DNA of 36,457 nucleotides from NCBI GenBank assembly GCA_023663685.1, contig JAMPHB010000012.1, positions 1 to 36,457 on the forward strand. The letters are read 5' to 3'. This document shows positions 2,690 to 17,448 of this stretch, in pieces (the stretch's first letter is position 1; each line of letters starts with the position of its first letter). Below the pieces are notes generated by a model. It was not told the DNA's origin and ran no database searches. It saw nothing but the letters and a program-made list of their open reading frames with translations. This stretch comes from Blautia sp. Lineage in GTDB: Bacteria > Bacillota > Clostridia > Lachnospirales > Lachnospiraceae. Position numbers and translations under genes: made by a program.

Positions 2690-2792
2690 GTGTTTTGCCC
2701 CGGTAAGTTTCTGCCCTGGAAAATACATGTGAGATCTGATATATATGCGCAGGAGGCGTTTATATATAATATTTTTAAGGAAAGGAGAAATT

Positions 2793-4973
2793 ATGAAAAA
2801 GAAACTGGTTAGTATGCTGCTGGCGTTTTGTACCTGCTTAAGCTTCGTTGCCTGTGGAAACACGGGAGACGGGGGGGTGGATACAGAAGAATTTGAGTCC
2901 ACGCAGCCGCAGGAGACAAGCAATGCGGAGGGCCTTACGATGCCCGAGAATTATGATGAGGATTCCTCGGAGATTTATAATCTGGCGCTTAAGGATTTCT
3001 ATGAGTCATATCAGCAGGCGAAGGCTTCCACGAATGTATCCGAGAAATTTGCGCTGGAGGCGATCGCGGAGGCGAAGCTTTTGGGCGCGGCGGTGATCAT
3101 TCCGACGATTACCCAGTATGGAGATTATGGAATACAGAGAGTTGCACCTTACACATCCCCGCAGGTGCTGTGGGGCACGGACAATGTCAGATACCATGAC
3201 CGCATCGTGTGCGAGGAGCTTATTACGAAGGAGGACTTTGCCGAGATCAAGCAGAAGTGGGCGGAGCTCAAGGGCACCGGCACCTATGAGGAATGGGTAA
3301 AGCAGTACCTTACCGACAAGGGTTACACCTTAAAGGATACCTACACATATGCATACTCGTCAGACCCTGTATCGTGGGATGTGCTGGCAACTTCCGAGGC
3401 GGTGGACAGCGAGGTGCTTGTCAATACCTACGACGGCCTGCTGGAGTATGACATGGAGGGCGTGCAGCAGCCCGCGCTTGCGGAGAGCTATGAGGTATCC
3501 GACGACGGCCTGACCTACACCTTCCACCTTCGCTCCGGCGTAAAGTGGGTGGACTCGCAGGGGCGCGAGGTCGCAGATGTCAAGGCCGACGATTTTGTTG
3601 CCGGTATGCAGCATCTTCTGGACGCCAAGGGCGGTCTGGATTCCCTGCTCTATGACATCATTAAAAATGCAAGGCAGTACGGAACCGGCGAGATATCTGA
3701 TTTCTCAGAGGTCGGAGTTGCCGCGCCGGATGATAATACTGTCGTTTATACGCTCGATGCACCCTGCAGCTATCTGATCACCATGGTGGGATATTCCATC
3801 TTTGCGCCGATGAGCAGAACCTATTATGAGTCCCAGGGCGGTAAGTTCGGCGTGGAGTTTGATTCCTCCGCAGCAGATTATACCTACGGCAAGGATGCGG
3901 ACTCTATCGCGTATTGCGGCCCCTACCTTGTGACGAGTGCGACGGAAAAGAATTCCATCGTGTACAAGGCAAATGAGTCCTACTGGAATGCCGGCAATAT
4001 CAATATAAATACAATCACCTGGCTGTTTTCAGACGGCTCTGACCCGACGAAGCTTTACAATGATGCGCTTGCGGGCACCATTGACGGCTGCGGCCTTACT
4101 GTGGAGGCGCTGGAGCTTGCCAAGGAGGACGGCAACTTTGATAAATATACGGTACTCCGTGATACGAACGCTACCTCGTACTGTGCATTCTTTAATCTGA
4201 ACCGGAATGCATTCCACAACTTTAATGACCACACCGTGGCTGTTTCCAGCCAGACAGAGGAGGATAAGACGCGGACGAATGCGGCGGTCAACAACGTGCA
4301 TTTCCGCCGGGCGTTATTCTTTGCCTTTGACCGCGCTTCCTACAATGCGCAGAGCAACGGTGAGGAGTTAAAGCTTAACAATCTTCGCAACACCTATACG
4401 CCGGGCAATTTCGTGACGCTCGAGGAGGATGTGACCGTTGACATCAACGGCACGGCGACCACCTTTGCGGCGGGAACGTACTACGGCGAGATCATTCAGG
4501 CGCAGCTGGATGCGGACAATATTCCGATTGTGGCATGGAACAAGGATGCGAACGACGGAATCGGCTCTTCGGACGGCTATGACGGCTGGCGCAATCTGGA
4601 CAACGCCAAGGCGGAGATGGAGACGGCGATCAGCGAGCTGGCAGAGGCAGGAGTCACCATCGATGCAGACAATCCGATTCATCTGGATGTACCCTACCCG
4701 TCGGAGGTAACAAGCCTTACGAATCAGGTGAACGTTATGAAGCAGTCGATCGAGTCCGCCTTTGACGGCGCTGTGGTCGTAGATCTGGTAGACTGTATCA
4801 CCTATACGACATGGGGATATTCCGGGTACTATACCTCTTACGGCTACGAGTCGAATTACGACCTGACCGACCAGTCCGGCTGGATGCCTGATTACGGCGA
4901 TCCCTCCAGCTATCTGGACACCTATCTGCCGGAATATGAAGGCTATATGGGAAAGGCCCTCGGAATTTACTAA
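2793..4973 (+). CDS. Oligopeptide-binding lipoprotein, AmiA/OppA type, apparently circularly permuted
   Basis: This 726-residue extracellular solute-binding lipoprotein (SBP_bac_5 family) would deliver peptides to the transporter encoded downstream. The start at 2793 follows AAAGGAG at six bases. The signal peptide is MKKKLVSMLL... with a lipobox-like FVAC and Cys21. From about residue 183 (TYTYAYSSDPVSWD) the order is canonical: DGLTYTFHLRSGVKW, ADDFVAGMQHLL, GPYLVTSATEKNSIVYKANESYW and near the end GWMPDYGDPSSYLDTYLP. The protein then stops at YMGKALGIY, where AmiA-like proteins continue for another 100 or so residues. That missing tail seems to sit at the N-terminus instead, residues 56-172: a helix, the strand AAVIIPTITQYG, RVAPYTSPQ, GTDNVRYHD and ITKEDFAEIKQKW. 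The termini therefore look swapped rather than lost. Ligand specificity is unknown. Confidence 0.88.
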   Translation: MKKKLVSMLLAFCTCLSFVACGNTGDGGVDTEEFESTQPQETSNAEGLTMPENYDEDSSEIYNLALKDFYESYQQAKASTNVSEKFALEAIAEAKLLGAAVIIPTITQYGDYGIQRVAPYTSPQVLWGTDNVRYHDRIVCEELITKEDFAEIKQKWAELKGTGTYEEWVKQYLTDKGYTLKDTYTYAYSSDPVSWDVLATSEAVDSEVLVNTYDGLLEYDMEGVQQPALAESYEVSDDGLTYTFHLRSGVKWVDSQGREVADVKADDFVAGMQHLLDAKGGLDSLLYDIIKNARQYGTGEISDFSEVGVAAPDDNTVVYTLDAPCSYLITMVGYSIFAPMSRTYYESQGGKFGVEFDSSAADYTYGKDADSIAYCGPYLVTSATEKNSIVYKANESYWNAGNININTITWLFSDGSDPTKLYNDALAGTIDGCGLTVEALELAKEDGNFDKYTVLRDTNATSYCAFFNLNRNAFHNFNDHTVAVSSQTEEDKTRTNAAVNNVHFRRALFFAFDRASYNAQSNGEELKLNNLRNTYTPGNFVTLEEDVTVDINGTATTFAAGTYYGEIIQAQLDADNIPIVAWNKDANDGIGSSDGYDGWRNLDNAKAEMETAISELAEAGVTIDADNPIHLDVPYPSEVTSLTNQVNVMKQSIESAFDGAVVVDLVDCITYTTWGYSGYYTSYGYESNYDLTDQSGWMPDYGDPSSYLDTYLPEYEGYMGKALGIY

Positions 4974-5053: not shown

Positions 5054-6625
5054 ATGGCAAAATATTTGATTAAGCGCATTCTTCACGGTCTGGTTTCCCT
5101 TGTCATTGTGGTGGGGCTGGTTATGATCATGGTGTACACCGTCATGGACCGGACTTTGATTTTTGCAAAGGATAATTCCTATACAAAGCAGAGCAACAAC
5201 TCAAAGATTGCTTACCGGTACCAGAAGTGGGAGGACTACGGCTATCTGGATTATGTGCCCTATGCGGATTATCTGCTCGACCTCGTGGAAAGCGGGGAGC
5301 TGGACGAGGAGACACGCGCAAAGGCGGTATCCATCGGCAGGACAAAGGAGCAGGACTCCGAGCTGGTGCAGGAATATGTTAAAAAATTTAATAATTATTA
5401 CAAATCTAAGGGCTATACGATCAGGCGCCTGGATGCGAAAATGATGAATCCGAAAAAGGTGGCTACCGGCGGTAACCAGCAGCTTTTCGCATACAAGGAT
5501 GTGCCGGTTCTGACCCGTCTATGGGGGTATTTTTCCGGTCTGGTCTCGATTGACAATATCCATAGGGTGGAGGATATCGAGGGAAAACGGGGGCTTACCT
5601 TTACATTGCATGATCCGGTCTATGGAGGGGAGAAGTTTTCTCCGGCGATCATGGGCAATGGAACAATGCATAAATATCTGTTATATTTTGACTCGAAATT
5701 TCCATATATTCATCAGAATATAGTTACAATAAATCTGGGCACGTCCTATTCTGTAAATCAGGGCAGCGATGTGTTTGACACCATGACGAGGGCGCAGGGC
5801 TCTTATGTGAAATCGACCATCACATTCCCGACGGGACTGACGGAGGCCAGCGCGGACGATCTGCACAGCGCGACCTATGTGAAGGGCTCGAGAGAGACGA
5901 GCCTTGTATATGAGGACCGCTTTACCGATGATTACACGAGGGTGCGGACGATGAAGGCGAACCATTCGAAGATTGGTTTTTCCTTTATGATCGGTATTCT
6001 GGCGACCCTTATGTCCTATATCCTCGGCGTGCCTCTTGGCATTTTGATGGCGCGCAAGAAGGATAAGCTGGTAGATAAGATCGGCACGTTTTACATTGTA
6101 TTTATCATGGCGGTGCCAAGCCTTGCCTATATCTTTTTGTTCAAGGCAATCGGTGGAAAGGCGGGGCTGCCCACGACCTTCGATCTCGAGGCGACGAGTA
6201 AGCTCATGTACATTCTGCCGATTGTTTCCCTCGCGCTGCCGCAGGTCGGCAACCTGATGAAATGGCTGCGCCGCTACATGATTGACCAGATGAACTCGGA
6301 CTATGTGAAGTTTGCGAGGTCGGGAGGACTGACCGAGGGCGAGATTTTCAGCAAACATATCTTTAAAAATGCGGTGATCCCGGTCGTGCAGGGGATTCCG
6401 GGAGCGGTTTTGGGAGCGATGACCGGAGCCATCATTACCGAGCGTGTGTATGTAGTGCCCGGCGCCGGAAACCTGCTCACGGAGGCAATCAACAAGTACG
6501 ACAACGGCGTTATTATCGGCGTCACGCTCTTTTACGCGGTGCTGACCGTGGCCTCTGTGATTTTGGGCGATGTGCTGATGGCGCTGGTAGACCCGAGAAT
6601 TTCATTTACAACGAAGGACAGGTGA
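5054..6625 (+). CDS. Oligopeptide ABC transporter permease, AmiC/OppB type
   Basis: This 523-residue inner-membrane permease pairs with the next gene product to form the peptide channel. One membrane helix lies at residues 9-30, followed by an extracellular region of about 270 residues (to about 305), then the five-helix permease core. The core carries the coupling-helix motif around RSGGLTEGEIFSKHIFKNA. Classical OppB is about 310 residues; AmiC of streptococci, about 500, also has a large external domain, so this is Ami-type. The start has only a weak GAGAG site, and translation may depend on the hairpin just upstream. Confidence 0.93.
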   Translation: MAKYLIKRILHGLVSLVIVVGLVMIMVYTVMDRTLIFAKDNSYTKQSNNSKIAYRYQKWEDYGYLDYVPYADYLLDLVESGELDEETRAKAVSIGRTKEQDSELVQEYVKKFNNYYKSKGYTIRRLDAKMMNPKKVATGGNQQLFAYKDVPVLTRLWGYFSGLVSIDNIHRVEDIEGKRGLTFTLHDPVYGGEKFSPAIMGNGTMHKYLLYFDSKFPYIHQNIVTINLGTSYSVNQGSDVFDTMTRAQGSYVKSTITFPTGLTEASADDLHSATYVKGSRETSLVYEDRFTDDYTRVRTMKANHSKIGFSFMIGILATLMSYILGVPLGILMARKKDKLVDKIGTFYIVFIMAVPSLAYIFLFKAIGGKAGLPTTFDLEATSKLMYILPIVSLALPQVGNLMKWLRRYMIDQMNSDYVKFARSGGLTEGEIFSKHIFKNAVIPVVQGIPGAVLGAMTGAIITERVYVVPGAGNLLTEAINKYDNGVIIGVTLFYAVLTVASVILGDVLMALVDPRISFTTKDR

Positions 6626-6631
6626 CGGACT

Positions 6632-7600
6632 ATGGACTATGATTTAAGCGAATTTGGACTGTCAGAACAGGAGCTTTTCTCCCGTGTGGATCACAGTGAT
6701 CTGGAGTCCGAAAAAATTACGGCCCCGAGATATTCCTACTGGAATTCGGTGTTTCGGGTGTTTTTCAGAAAGAAGTTCAACATATTTATTTTAGTTTTGC
6801 TGGCAGTGATCATACTGTTTGCCTATCTGTATCCGATGTTCATCGAGTACGATAAGTTTGCCAACCTTATGAATGCGAGCGCAAAGCATTTGACGCCGGC
6901 GCAGGCGCTCCAGAGGAACGGCTTTTCCATTCACTGGCTCCTCGGAGCGGGAGCCGCAGGGCAGTCCACCTTTGACGCAATCTGGGTGGGCTCACGGATC
7001 TCCATCTCTCTGGCACTGGTCTGCGCGGCAATCAACATGACGGTCGGCGTGATCGTGGGAGCAGTCTGGGGTTTTTCCAAGAAGCTGGACATCATTATGA
7101 TGGAGCTGTTCAATATCATTTACAATGTGCCCTATCTGCTGGTGTGCGCGGTGCTCGTCATGCTCTTTACGCCGAGCTTCTGGGTGATGGTATTTGCCTT
7201 TACAATCACCGAGTGGCTGTCGGTTGCTTACTTTATCCGCACGCAGGTAATCATTATAAGGGACCGGGAGTATAATCTGGCATCCAGATGCCTGGGAACA
7301 TCCACGATAAAGATTGCGACAAAAAATATTCTGCCCTTTATGACCTCTGTGATCGTGACGCTTCTGGCTACGGAGATTCCGTATTATATCTCCATGGAAG
7401 TATTTCTTTCCTATGTGGGACTGGGCTTGTCCGACATGTCACTGGGACGCCTGATTTATGAGTCGGAGAGCGCTATGGTGACGCCGGGCTGGGGCTTCGA
7501 ATTCTGGAGTCCGGTGGCGGTCGCATCCATAATAGCGGTAGTGCTGTATGTGGCCGGGCAGAATCTCGGAGACGCCTCCGATCCAAGAACACATATGTGA
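6632..7600 (+). CDS. Oligopeptide ABC transporter permease, AmiD/OppC type
   Basis: This 322-residue second permease subunit begins six bases after the AmiC-like stop, with AGGTGA upstream. It has the OppC layout: a cytosolic N-terminus of about 45 residues, a first membrane helix (NIFILVLLAVIILFAYLYP), an external loop, then five helices. The coupling loop is around REYNLASRCLGTSTIKI and the C-terminus ends NLGDASDPRTHM, close to the usual NLGDGLRDALDPR. Length is normal. It forms the channel with the product of 5054-6625. Confidence 0.93.
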   Translation: MDYDLSEFGLSEQELFSRVDHSDLESEKITAPRYSYWNSVFRVFFRKKFNIFILVLLAVIILFAYLYPMFIEYDKFANLMNASAKHLTPAQALQRNGFSIHWLLGAGAAGQSTFDAIWVGSRISISLALVCAAINMTVGVIVGAVWGFSKKLDIIMMELFNIIYNVPYLLVCAVLVMLFTPSFWVMVFAFTITEWLSVAYFIRTQVIIIRDREYNLASRCLGTSTIKIATKNILPFMTSVIVTLLATEIPYYISMEVFLSYVGLGLSDMSLGRLIYESESAMVTPGWGFEFWSPVAVASIIAVVLYVAGQNLGDASDPRTHM

Positions 7601-10754: not shown

Positions 10755-12017
10755 ATGGCGGCAAAGAAGCGGAACTCTCCACATGTGGATAAGGTCACAA
10801 GGGTGGAGCTTAAGGATGATAAATACAACAAATACCGTCTGGCGGCGGTGATCCTCCTTCTGGCGGTCGGCGCTTTTGCCCTTGCCAGTGCATTTACGCA
10901 GTTTTTGAACGGGAGCAGCGGCTGGACGGAGATTGAGGCGAATGCTGCCGCAGAGATAAACTGTGCCGGGGACTTTGTGTTTCTCTATGAGCTGGGGGCG
11001 GGCGGGCAGACGCCCTCCGCGGAGAGCAAGGCCGTGCGGGCGGTTTATACGGACGCCTGTGTAAAGCTGTATCAGCTTTTTAACGTGTATCAGGAATTTG
11101 AGGGCGTACACAACCTCTGCTATATCAATGCACACCCGGGGGAGGAAATTGTGGTGGATCCGGTGCTGTACGACGCTTTTTCCCTGGCAGAGGCCTGCGG
11201 GGAGAGGCGGATCTATCTGGCGCCTGTCTATGAGGTCTGCGACAATATTTTTTATTGCGGGGATGATTCGGAAACGGCAGTGTTTGACCCGGAGCAGAAT
11301 GAGGAGCTGGCGGAATTCTGCGGGCAGACGGCGGAGTTTGCCTCGGACGGGGAGAGCATAGAAATCGAGCTGCTGGGAGATAACACGATAAGGCTTTCGA
11401 TTGCGCCGGAGTATAAAAGCTGGCTGGATGCGGAGTCTGTGACCCAGTATGTGGATTTTTACTGGATGAAAAATGCGTTTATCGCGGACGCTCTCGCGGA
11501 GGAGCTGGCCGCGCAGGGGTATACCCGGGGCGTGATTTCCAGCCATGACGGCTTTGTGCGCAATCTGGATACCAGAGACGTGACCTATGCCTTTAATCTG
11601 TACGACCGCTTTGGCGATACCGTCTACGATGCGGGCACGATGGAGTATGCCGGGGCGTTAAGTCTGGTCAGCCTGCGGAACTATCCGCTGAACCAAATTG
11701 ACCGCATGTATTATTATGAGTTTGCGGACGGCACGCTGCGCACGGCCTACCGGGATATTGCGGACGGGAGCGAGAAGTGTGCGAGAAACAATCTGGTGAC
11801 GTATTCCCGCGGTATGGGGTGCGGGGAGCTGCTTATGCATACGGCTCCGGTGTTTGTCGCGGACGAGTGGGACGGGGAGGCGCCCGGGAGGCTTTTGCAA
11901 AGTGGTATCCACTGTATCTACGGTGGGGAAATGACCTTGTATTACAATGACAGTGACATAAGCATCACCGGCCTGTACGATAAAGGGGATGTGAGTTACC
12001 GGGCGGTTCTGCAGTGA
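10755..12017 (+). CDS. Membrane-anchored ApbE-like protein, probably catalytically dead
   Basis: This 420-residue protein is encoded six bases after the ATPase gene. A basic N-terminus precedes one membrane helix (residues 28-50), and the remainder is predicted outside. Residues 104-143 (LYQLFNVYQEFEGVHNLCYI and on) match the pattern of clostridial ApbE flavin transferases (YxxYxxxxGxxNxxxIN, then VxVDxxxxD). Residues 231-271 line up with the DxGAIAKGYA...GGN region, but KGYA has become KNAF and GGN has become HDG. The HxxDPxTG loop appears as AYRDIADGS, without its His and Pro. Real ApbE moves FMN from FAD to exported proteins; this one likely lacks that activity and may bind flavin or a partner. 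It appears to be a sixth member of the transporter operon. Function unknown. Confidence 0.62.
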   Translation: MAAKKRNSPHVDKVTRVELKDDKYNKYRLAAVILLLAVGAFALASAFTQFLNGSSGWTEIEANAAAEINCAGDFVFLYELGAGGQTPSAESKAVRAVYTDACVKLYQLFNVYQEFEGVHNLCYINAHPGEEIVVDPVLYDAFSLAEACGERRIYLAPVYEVCDNIFYCGDDSETAVFDPEQNEELAEFCGQTAEFASDGESIEIELLGDNTIRLSIAPEYKSWLDAESVTQYVDFYWMKNAFIADALAEELAAQGYTRGVISSHDGFVRNLDTRDVTYAFNLYDRFGDTVYDAGTMEYAGALSLVSLRNYPLNQIDRMYYYEFADGTLRTAYRDIADGSEKCARNNLVTYSRGMGCGELLMHTAPVFVADEWDGEAPGRLLQSGIHCIYGGEMTLYYNDSDISITGLYDKGDVSYRAVLQ

Positions 12018-17330: not shown

Positions 17331-17333
17331 TGA

Positions 17334-17422
17334 CGGAGTGGATGGGATTCGAACCCACGTGCCCGAAAACCGGACAACTGCATTTCGAGTGCAGCTCGTT
17401 ATGACCTCTTCGATACCACTCC
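17334..17422 (-). tRNA. tRNA-Ser (anticodon CGA)
   Basis: The acceptor arms are GGAGTGG and CCACTCC with discriminator G. The anticodon arm CTGCA-CTCGAAA-TGCAG gives anticodon CGA. The long variable arm and 89-nt length fit a class II Ser tRNA. CCA is not encoded. Its 3' end lies 10 bases from the 37-bp repeat copy 2. Confidence 0.95.
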
Positions 17423-17448
17423 ATGTATGACTGCAGCGCAGGCTACGC

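Follow-up and report, generated by a model that had tools for sequence, protein, structure and literature searches.

Segment order of the binding protein

The gene at positions 2793 to 4973 of the window (the whole 36,457-nucleotide stretch of Blautia sp. DNA analysed here, contig JAMPHB010000012.1) is best explained as encoding a circularly permuted oligopeptide-binding lipoprotein of the Ami/Ali type that goes back to one ancestral event, a reading to which we give a probability of about 0.92. Judged from sequence, which gives the order and completeness of its segments, their conservation, a single clade of permuted proteins and the operon around the gene, the 726-residue lipoprotein is a natural circular permutant of the AmiA/AliB oligopeptide-binding proteins. 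The gene and its parts were assigned as follows:

2782..2787, plus strand: AAGGAG, 5 bases 5' of the ATG, which we take from its motif to be Shine-Dalgarno-like (sequence)
2793..4973, plus strand: predicted permuted AmiA/AliB-type oligopeptide-binding lipoprotein gene, 726 aa (ORF, PDB sequence matches, profile, reordering)
2793..2855, plus strand: signal peptide up to lipobox Cys21, residues 1–21 (Cys21 column at least 90% conserved in 65 homologues)
2856..2954, plus strand: low-complexity tether, residues 22–54 (poorly conserved, of different length among homologues)
2955..3272, plus strand: transposed C-terminal segment, residues ~55–160 (matches to canonical C-termini; domain limits from the AliD description in PMC11192437, used in part)
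3273..3335, plus strand: new junction from the old C-terminus to the old N-terminus, residues ~161–181 (GTGTYEEWVKQYLTDKGYTLK; alignment)
3336..4970, plus strand: canonical core, residues 182–726 (stops 22 residues past the GWxPDYGDP motif)

The original prediction described the ORF correctly, including its motifs and the order in which they come, and the protein ends in GWMPDYGDPSSYLDTYLPEYEGYMGKALGIY. The elements that end AmiA-type proteins, namely a helix, a VIIP strand, a GTDNVRYHD loop and the ITKEDFAEIKQKW helix, are absent after the core and sit at residues ~56–172 with their order kept, ahead of TYTYAYSSDP. The core does lack its C-terminal elements, and no tail of ~100 residues is hidden downstream because the next gene starts just 80 bases past the stop. 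The tail precedes the core in the window protein, as opposed to the canonical order with the C-terminal segment behind the core. The transposed segment comprises the final part of Domain III, the last segment of Domain I and the first half of the Ali C-terminal helix, and it is followed by a junction in which G161, T162, G163, G177 and Y178 are conserved in at least 90% of 65 homologues.

The original prediction also held that the missing and the extra parts complement each other, and moving the tail behind the core did produce end-to-end matches with canonical full-length proteins. The reordered window protein matched AliB in one stretch, residues 3–655 on 7–610, with 289.2 bits compared to 275 bits in native order, and matches in one stretch were obtained with all four of AliB, AliC, AliD and AmiA. 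The wider comparison drew on sets of 85 permuted and 52 canonical proteins, without identical and cut ORFs and without loci L007, L008, L009 and L128. All 85 permuted homologues scored higher on a 624-position canonical profile after reordering, with the median rising from 402.9 to 420.2 bits, and 84 of them aligned as one stretch. The two segments of one parent, in swapped order, jointly covered a median of 97% of the profile, as is the case in a circular permutant.

Pfam was considered as a judge of the permutation and rejected. The window protein scores 143.2 bits on PF00496 (SBP_bac_5), above the gathering score of 32.4, and the match already covers positions 3–362 of 368 in native order. 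This check is uninformative because the model spans only the middle of the protein, which is a caution for annotation, as middle-domain models like PF00496 miss such rearrangements.

Homology of the transposed segment to canonical C-termini

Searching the PDB with the window protein returned canonical-type relatives only, and the pneumococcal Ami binding proteins were the best matches. With this one sequence, phmmer placed residues 179–719 on AliB 4–496 and, as a second stretch, residues 69–160 on AliB 518–610 (i-E-value 7 × 10−4). The same tail stretch matched AliC (i-E-value 28) and AliD (0.21) weakly, and no second stretch was listed for AmiA. From one sequence alone, the tail match is only suggestive. 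Its lack of significance for AliC and AliD, together with a low identity to canonical C-termini of ~25% in hhalign, would fit an unrelated N-terminal domain placed before a truncated, perhaps degenerate, binding protein, the outcome that the original prediction named as fatal to it. Searches with more sequences make such a domain very improbable, as the tail matched canonical C-termini in a profile search of the PDB, in the canonical profile, in hhalign and in NCBIfam.

For the PDB search, the best 80 of 160 relatives found among 178 pattern matches were kept, and 65 of these with less than 85% identity were aligned. A profile of residues 53–178 from these 65 homologues was searched against 177,635 distinct PDB sequences. 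It matched AliB 515–612, AliC 520–630, AmiA 518–624 and AliD 503–610 with E-values of 6.4 × 10−10 to 2.6 × 10−8. Beyond these four Ami proteins, just one match was found at an E-value of up to 10, to an unrelated protein (E-value 0.53). We regard the matches of the profile to the C-termini of the four Ami proteins as decisive for the homology of the tail.

In hhalign, the tail matched columns 513–609 of a 628-column profile of canonical proteins from Lactobacillales with a probability of 97.9% and an E-value of 5.9 × 10−13. The tails alone matched the 624-position canonical profile in 85 of 85 permuted proteins, at median positions 511–608 and with i-E-values below 10−3 in all but one. As a control, none of the 85 reversed tails matched this profile, and one of 85 matched a broader profile (5.9 bits). 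All three tails searched against the 18,950 models of NCBIfam matched positions 783/784–887 of the 896-position mollicute OppA model NF043077 (E-values 1.9 × 10−6, 2 × 10−7 and 2.2 × 10−4), while the next best match of any tail had an E-value of 0.14. The order of this model, with its tail at the end, is canonical.

The conservation of the tail likewise argues against an unrelated domain. Mean column identity among the permuted homologues is 60% in the tail, close to the 66% of the core, and the same C-terminal end is found in dozens of species. Among 89 complete ORFs (refetched copies included), 77 end 22 residues past the DP motif, 10 end 21 residues past it and 2 end 20 residues past it.

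Cut site, binding residues and tether

The part of PMC11192437 drawn on here gives Domain I of AliD as residues 29–63, 191–296 and 583–617, Domain II as 64–190 and Domain III as 297–582, with a C-terminal helix (622–652) that packs on Domains I and II. We related the two proteins on the deduction that the chain and AliD numberings are offset by 25, which fits the letters G39, Y50, Y51, W498, D501, F518, Y519, I603 and N608. With this offset, the C-terminus of the window protein corresponds to about AliD 523 and the start of the tail to about AliD 528, both within Domain III. In canonical proteins, the DP motif and the conserved helix that follows it are 40 to 66 residues apart (47 of 57 measurable), so the loop in which the cut lies varies in length, as expected for a tolerant loop.

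AliD W498 and D501 bind the amino end of the peptide (PMC11192437, as far as used). They align with W697 and D700 of the window protein, which are invariant in 65 of 65 homologues. In the alignment, Y718/M719, close to the new C-terminus, match AliD F518/Y519, and tail positions 129 and 132, beside the invariant G128 and D130, match AliD I603/N608. The tail should therefore contribute to the binding site. A linker of ~21 residues, in which a GTG is conserved, connects the old C-terminus to the old N-terminus. The first half of the long C-terminal helix alpha19 of AliD aligns with the window protein (ITKEDFAEIKQKWAELK), and its second half is replaced by the linker.

In AliD, the lipid tether enters Domain I, which belongs to Lobe 1 (PMC11192437, in the part consulted). 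As the cut lies in a Domain III loop, the lipid anchor of the window protein should attach to Lobe 2 and not to Lobe 1. The same source presents an AlphaFold model, in the section used, in which one extracellular part of AmiC is wedged between the lobes, another contacts Lobe 1 only and AmiD is on Lobe 2.

These observations suggest the following course. In one event, the final ~100 residues would have come to lie near the N-terminus, following the signal peptide and tether, in a lineage whose descendants are now mostly in Clostridia. A short new linker would bridge the old C-terminus and the old N-terminus, and the new C-terminus would lie in the length-variable Domain III loop. The whole fold is predicted to form still, with the peptide held between two lobes. 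W697 and D700 would grip its amino end, and the peptide would be passed to the AmiCDEF-type importer encoded alongside, with the lipid tether leading into Domain III (Lobe 2) in place of Domain I (Lobe 1). The fold, the peptide binding and the anchor on Lobe 2 are expected from the alignments, and in all likelihood the window protein functions in an Ami-type importer as a lipoprotein that binds peptides and is held by the opposite lobe.

Distribution and origin of the permuted form

The permuted form is conserved across dozens of species, many of them gut and rumen Clostridia. Tail and core were found in permuted order in 94 ORFs (89 distinct) and in canonical order in 60 (57 distinct), counts that take in identical genes fetched twice and some cut ORFs. 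Another 25 ORFs without an assigned order are more distant binding proteins without a tail match, or cut pieces. Canonical loci L111–L142 had been chosen by their tail match and L151–L170 by the core alone, and the tail lies behind the core in 20 of the 20 latter loci. Many homologue records are metagenome assemblies, which might point to an artefact of assembly or annotation. This is refuted by the same order in the isolates Roseburia inulinivorans DSM 16841, R. hominis An869, Fusicatenibacter saccharivorans D41t1 and Butyrivibrio hungatei DSM 14810, as well as by its recurrence in the 94 ORFs, and we regard an artefact as next to impossible.

Genome surveys with the tail profile were bimodal, with permuted proteins at 110–195 bits, canonical proteins at 21–54 bits and an empty gap in between among the matches listed. 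By score, permuted proteins occur in 14 of 397 genomes of the family of the window, 5 of 391 of the class and 2 of 348 of the phylum, sets that overlap. Twelve of the 14 family genomes were fetched and all showed the permuted order; two of the five class genomes were fetched. A search of a plasmid collection gave 11 records with a match to the gene, all of them covering less than 80% of it, and the five of the 11 that were listed cover 3–5% each.

The homologue records are labelled mostly as Clostridia, with one Erysipelotrichaceae and one Muribaculaceae. The latter (L031) is the closest record to the window, with a 99% identical protein. Muribaculaceae are a family of Bacteroidota, and the window protein groups with those of Lachnospiraceae and other Clostridia; the label of L031 is probably wrong.

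A simple lipobox pattern was missed in 9 of 81 homologues. Three of these have LCAC and are probably lipoproteins, four have a Tat-like RRDFLK start without a lipobox and two have neither. Because some are without a lipobox, not all permuted homologues are lipoproteins. The RRDFLK start, presumably a Tat signal by its motif, was seen in loci L050, L052, L053 and L068.

A tree of the core was built from 80 rows, representing 22 of 68 permuted proteins, 52 canonical proteins and 6 outgroup sequences, as a quick tree without bootstrap. The permuted proteins form one clade (SH-aLRT 99) nested among canonical proteins. Its sister consists of the AmiA/Ali proteins of Lactobacillales and a canonical protein from the class of the window (L118), with the permuted and Lactobacillales clades joined at an SH-aLRT of 98, which places the permuted proteins with Ami/Ali. 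Since the permuted clade is single and nested in canonical proteins, the canonical order is most simply ancestral and changed once; the permutation thus appears to have arisen once. Mollicute OppA was considered as a nearer sister. The family search at an E-value of 10−30 gave 0 of 299 genomes, but its controls gave 0 of 14 too.

The most likely route would be a tandem gene duplication followed by fusion and loss of the outer parts. Tandem canonical Ami binding-protein genes, present in some loci (L122, L158 and L159), fit duplication, fusion and trimming. This route is unproven, as none of 154 ORFs has a tail-like match on both sides of the core and no intermediate was found. The same tandem genes are also compatible with a different history for the same fold, in which the tail stemmed from another protein of this binding-protein type and was joined before a core that had lost its own tail. 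Loci L050, L053 and L068, where the 3' part of another permuted gene lies ~5 kb upstream, may likewise be taken in favour of such a fusion, and a tree of the tail alone resolves few forks, having too few columns to decide between the two histories. Against it, the permuted proteins come out as a single group with the tail (99) as well as with the core (99), and no large loss or overlap is seen at the seam, although a fusion of sister copies would still be compatible with this. We consider fusion rather unlikely and prefer a permutation within one gene.

A second tail was suspected in the ~130-residue N-terminal extension of the canonical Ali-like binding proteins of L133, L135, L137 and L138, which belong to one family. 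Of five N-terminal extensions scanned with the tail model, two were reported, the best at −2.7 bits, and the suspected tail was discarded. The extension in L138 is a Cu_amine_oxidN1 domain (Pfam, E-value 1.4 × 10−35), perhaps serving as a stalk that replaces the usual tether.

Comparison with known systems

The pneumococcal Ami proteins AmiA, AliB, AliC and AliD (PDB 8a42, 8qlj, 8qlh and 8qlc) are homologous to the window protein in both core and tail, and share with it the tryptophan and aspartate at the amino end of the peptide and an operon with a long AmiC bearing an extracellular region. The window protein differs from them in the swapped order of its segments, the expected place of its lipid tether, the replacement of the second half of the C-terminal helix by the ~21-residue linker and extra insertions in the core.

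The original prediction knew of no permuted binding protein in an Ami operon. In open-licence full-text literature, partly judged by title and the start of the abstract, we also found no permuted oligopeptide-binding protein. The statement needs refining in one respect, as a permuted Type I sugar-binding lipoprotein has been published: TpMglB-2 (Tp0684), a 'Type Ic' glucose-binding lipoprotein, is a natural permutant of the Type I sugar-binding fold (PMC4990184, seen in part). Like the window protein, it is a naturally permuted, anchored binding protein of an ABC importer with relatives in Gram-positive gut bacteria; by its description, it is set apart by its Type I sugar-binding fold and a different cut. 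This sugar binder is the one published natural permutation of an ABC-importer binding protein that we found in the literature covered, and the present case lies in a well-studied peptide-importer family. The authors of TpMglB-2 suggest tethering as a possible reason for the permutation (PMC4990184, same part), an idea that the permuted peptide-binding family makes testable. The family amounts to a natural experiment that asks if the position of the tether affects the transfer of the peptide to the permease.

Operon context

The permuted gene heads an Ami-type importer operon, which continues with five genes:

5054..6625, plus strand: AmiC-type permease, 523 aa, which has the large extracellular region seen in AmiC of the streptococcal type
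6632..7600, plus strand: AmiD-type permease (OppC), 322 aa
7663..9411, plus strand: AmiE-type ATPase (OppD), 582 aa, with 281 residues from Walker A to Q-loop
9417..10748, plus strand: AmiF-type ATPase (OppF), 443 aa, extended at the C-terminus by a stretch that includes two hydrophobic segments (by eye)
10755..12017, plus strand: 420-aa protein with a single hydrophobic segment at its N-terminus (by eye); sixth operon gene

The AmiC of the window is 35% identical to that of L131 over 531 columns and keeps the extracellular region. Among permuted genes with 1000 or more bases of sequence behind them, 86 of 89 have an AmiC-like gene next (median 529 aa in 80 complete ORFs); among canonical genes, 42 of 56 do (median 323 aa in 28 complete ORFs, two of which, L118 and L131, are long). 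The canonical median is without the Lactobacillales loci found by core alone, where AmiC is cut by the locus ends, and the counts for AmiC, AmiE and AmiF include refetched copies.

The two ATPases also differ between the operons. More than 150 residues separate Walker A from the Q-loop of AmiE in 64 of 67 measurable ORFs in permuted operons versus 0 of 15 in canonical operons, out of 71 and 23 ORFs, respectively. This insert is not new, because the mollicute OppD model NF043079 covers the long AmiE of the window nearly end to end (7–578 on 1–557 of 561). The window proteins fall below the cut-offs of both this model and NF043077. Of the AmiF proteins, 55 of 59 in permuted operons and 0 of 22 in canonical ones carry two hydrophobic segments at their end; hydrophobic C-terminal segments are odd for a cytosolic ATPase.

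The 420-aa protein had no match in Pfam or NCBIfam and matched a HAD-like hydrolase weakly in the PDB (E-value 0.002). Its relatives occur in 10 of 15 other genomes scored as permuted. In 9 of them, the coordinates place the relative downstream of the permuted gene, with both on one contig and strand. In genome G075, the relative is on the contig that also carries the 3' part of the permuted gene.

Tentatively, and at somewhat less than even odds, the operon may represent a distinct class of gut-Clostridia peptide importer, with a Lobe 2-tethered binding protein inside a co-evolved six-gene system. The system would comprise the permuted binding protein, a long AmiC, AmiD, an ATPase with a large insert, an ATPase with a membrane-inserting tail and, in most such systems, a new membrane-anchored accessory protein. 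If so, moving the tether would affect the way in which the permease meets the closed binding protein.

A tRNA-Leu (tag) gene lies just upstream of the operon at 2386–2466, and a tRNA-Ser (cga) gene is found at 17332–17423, both on the minus strand.
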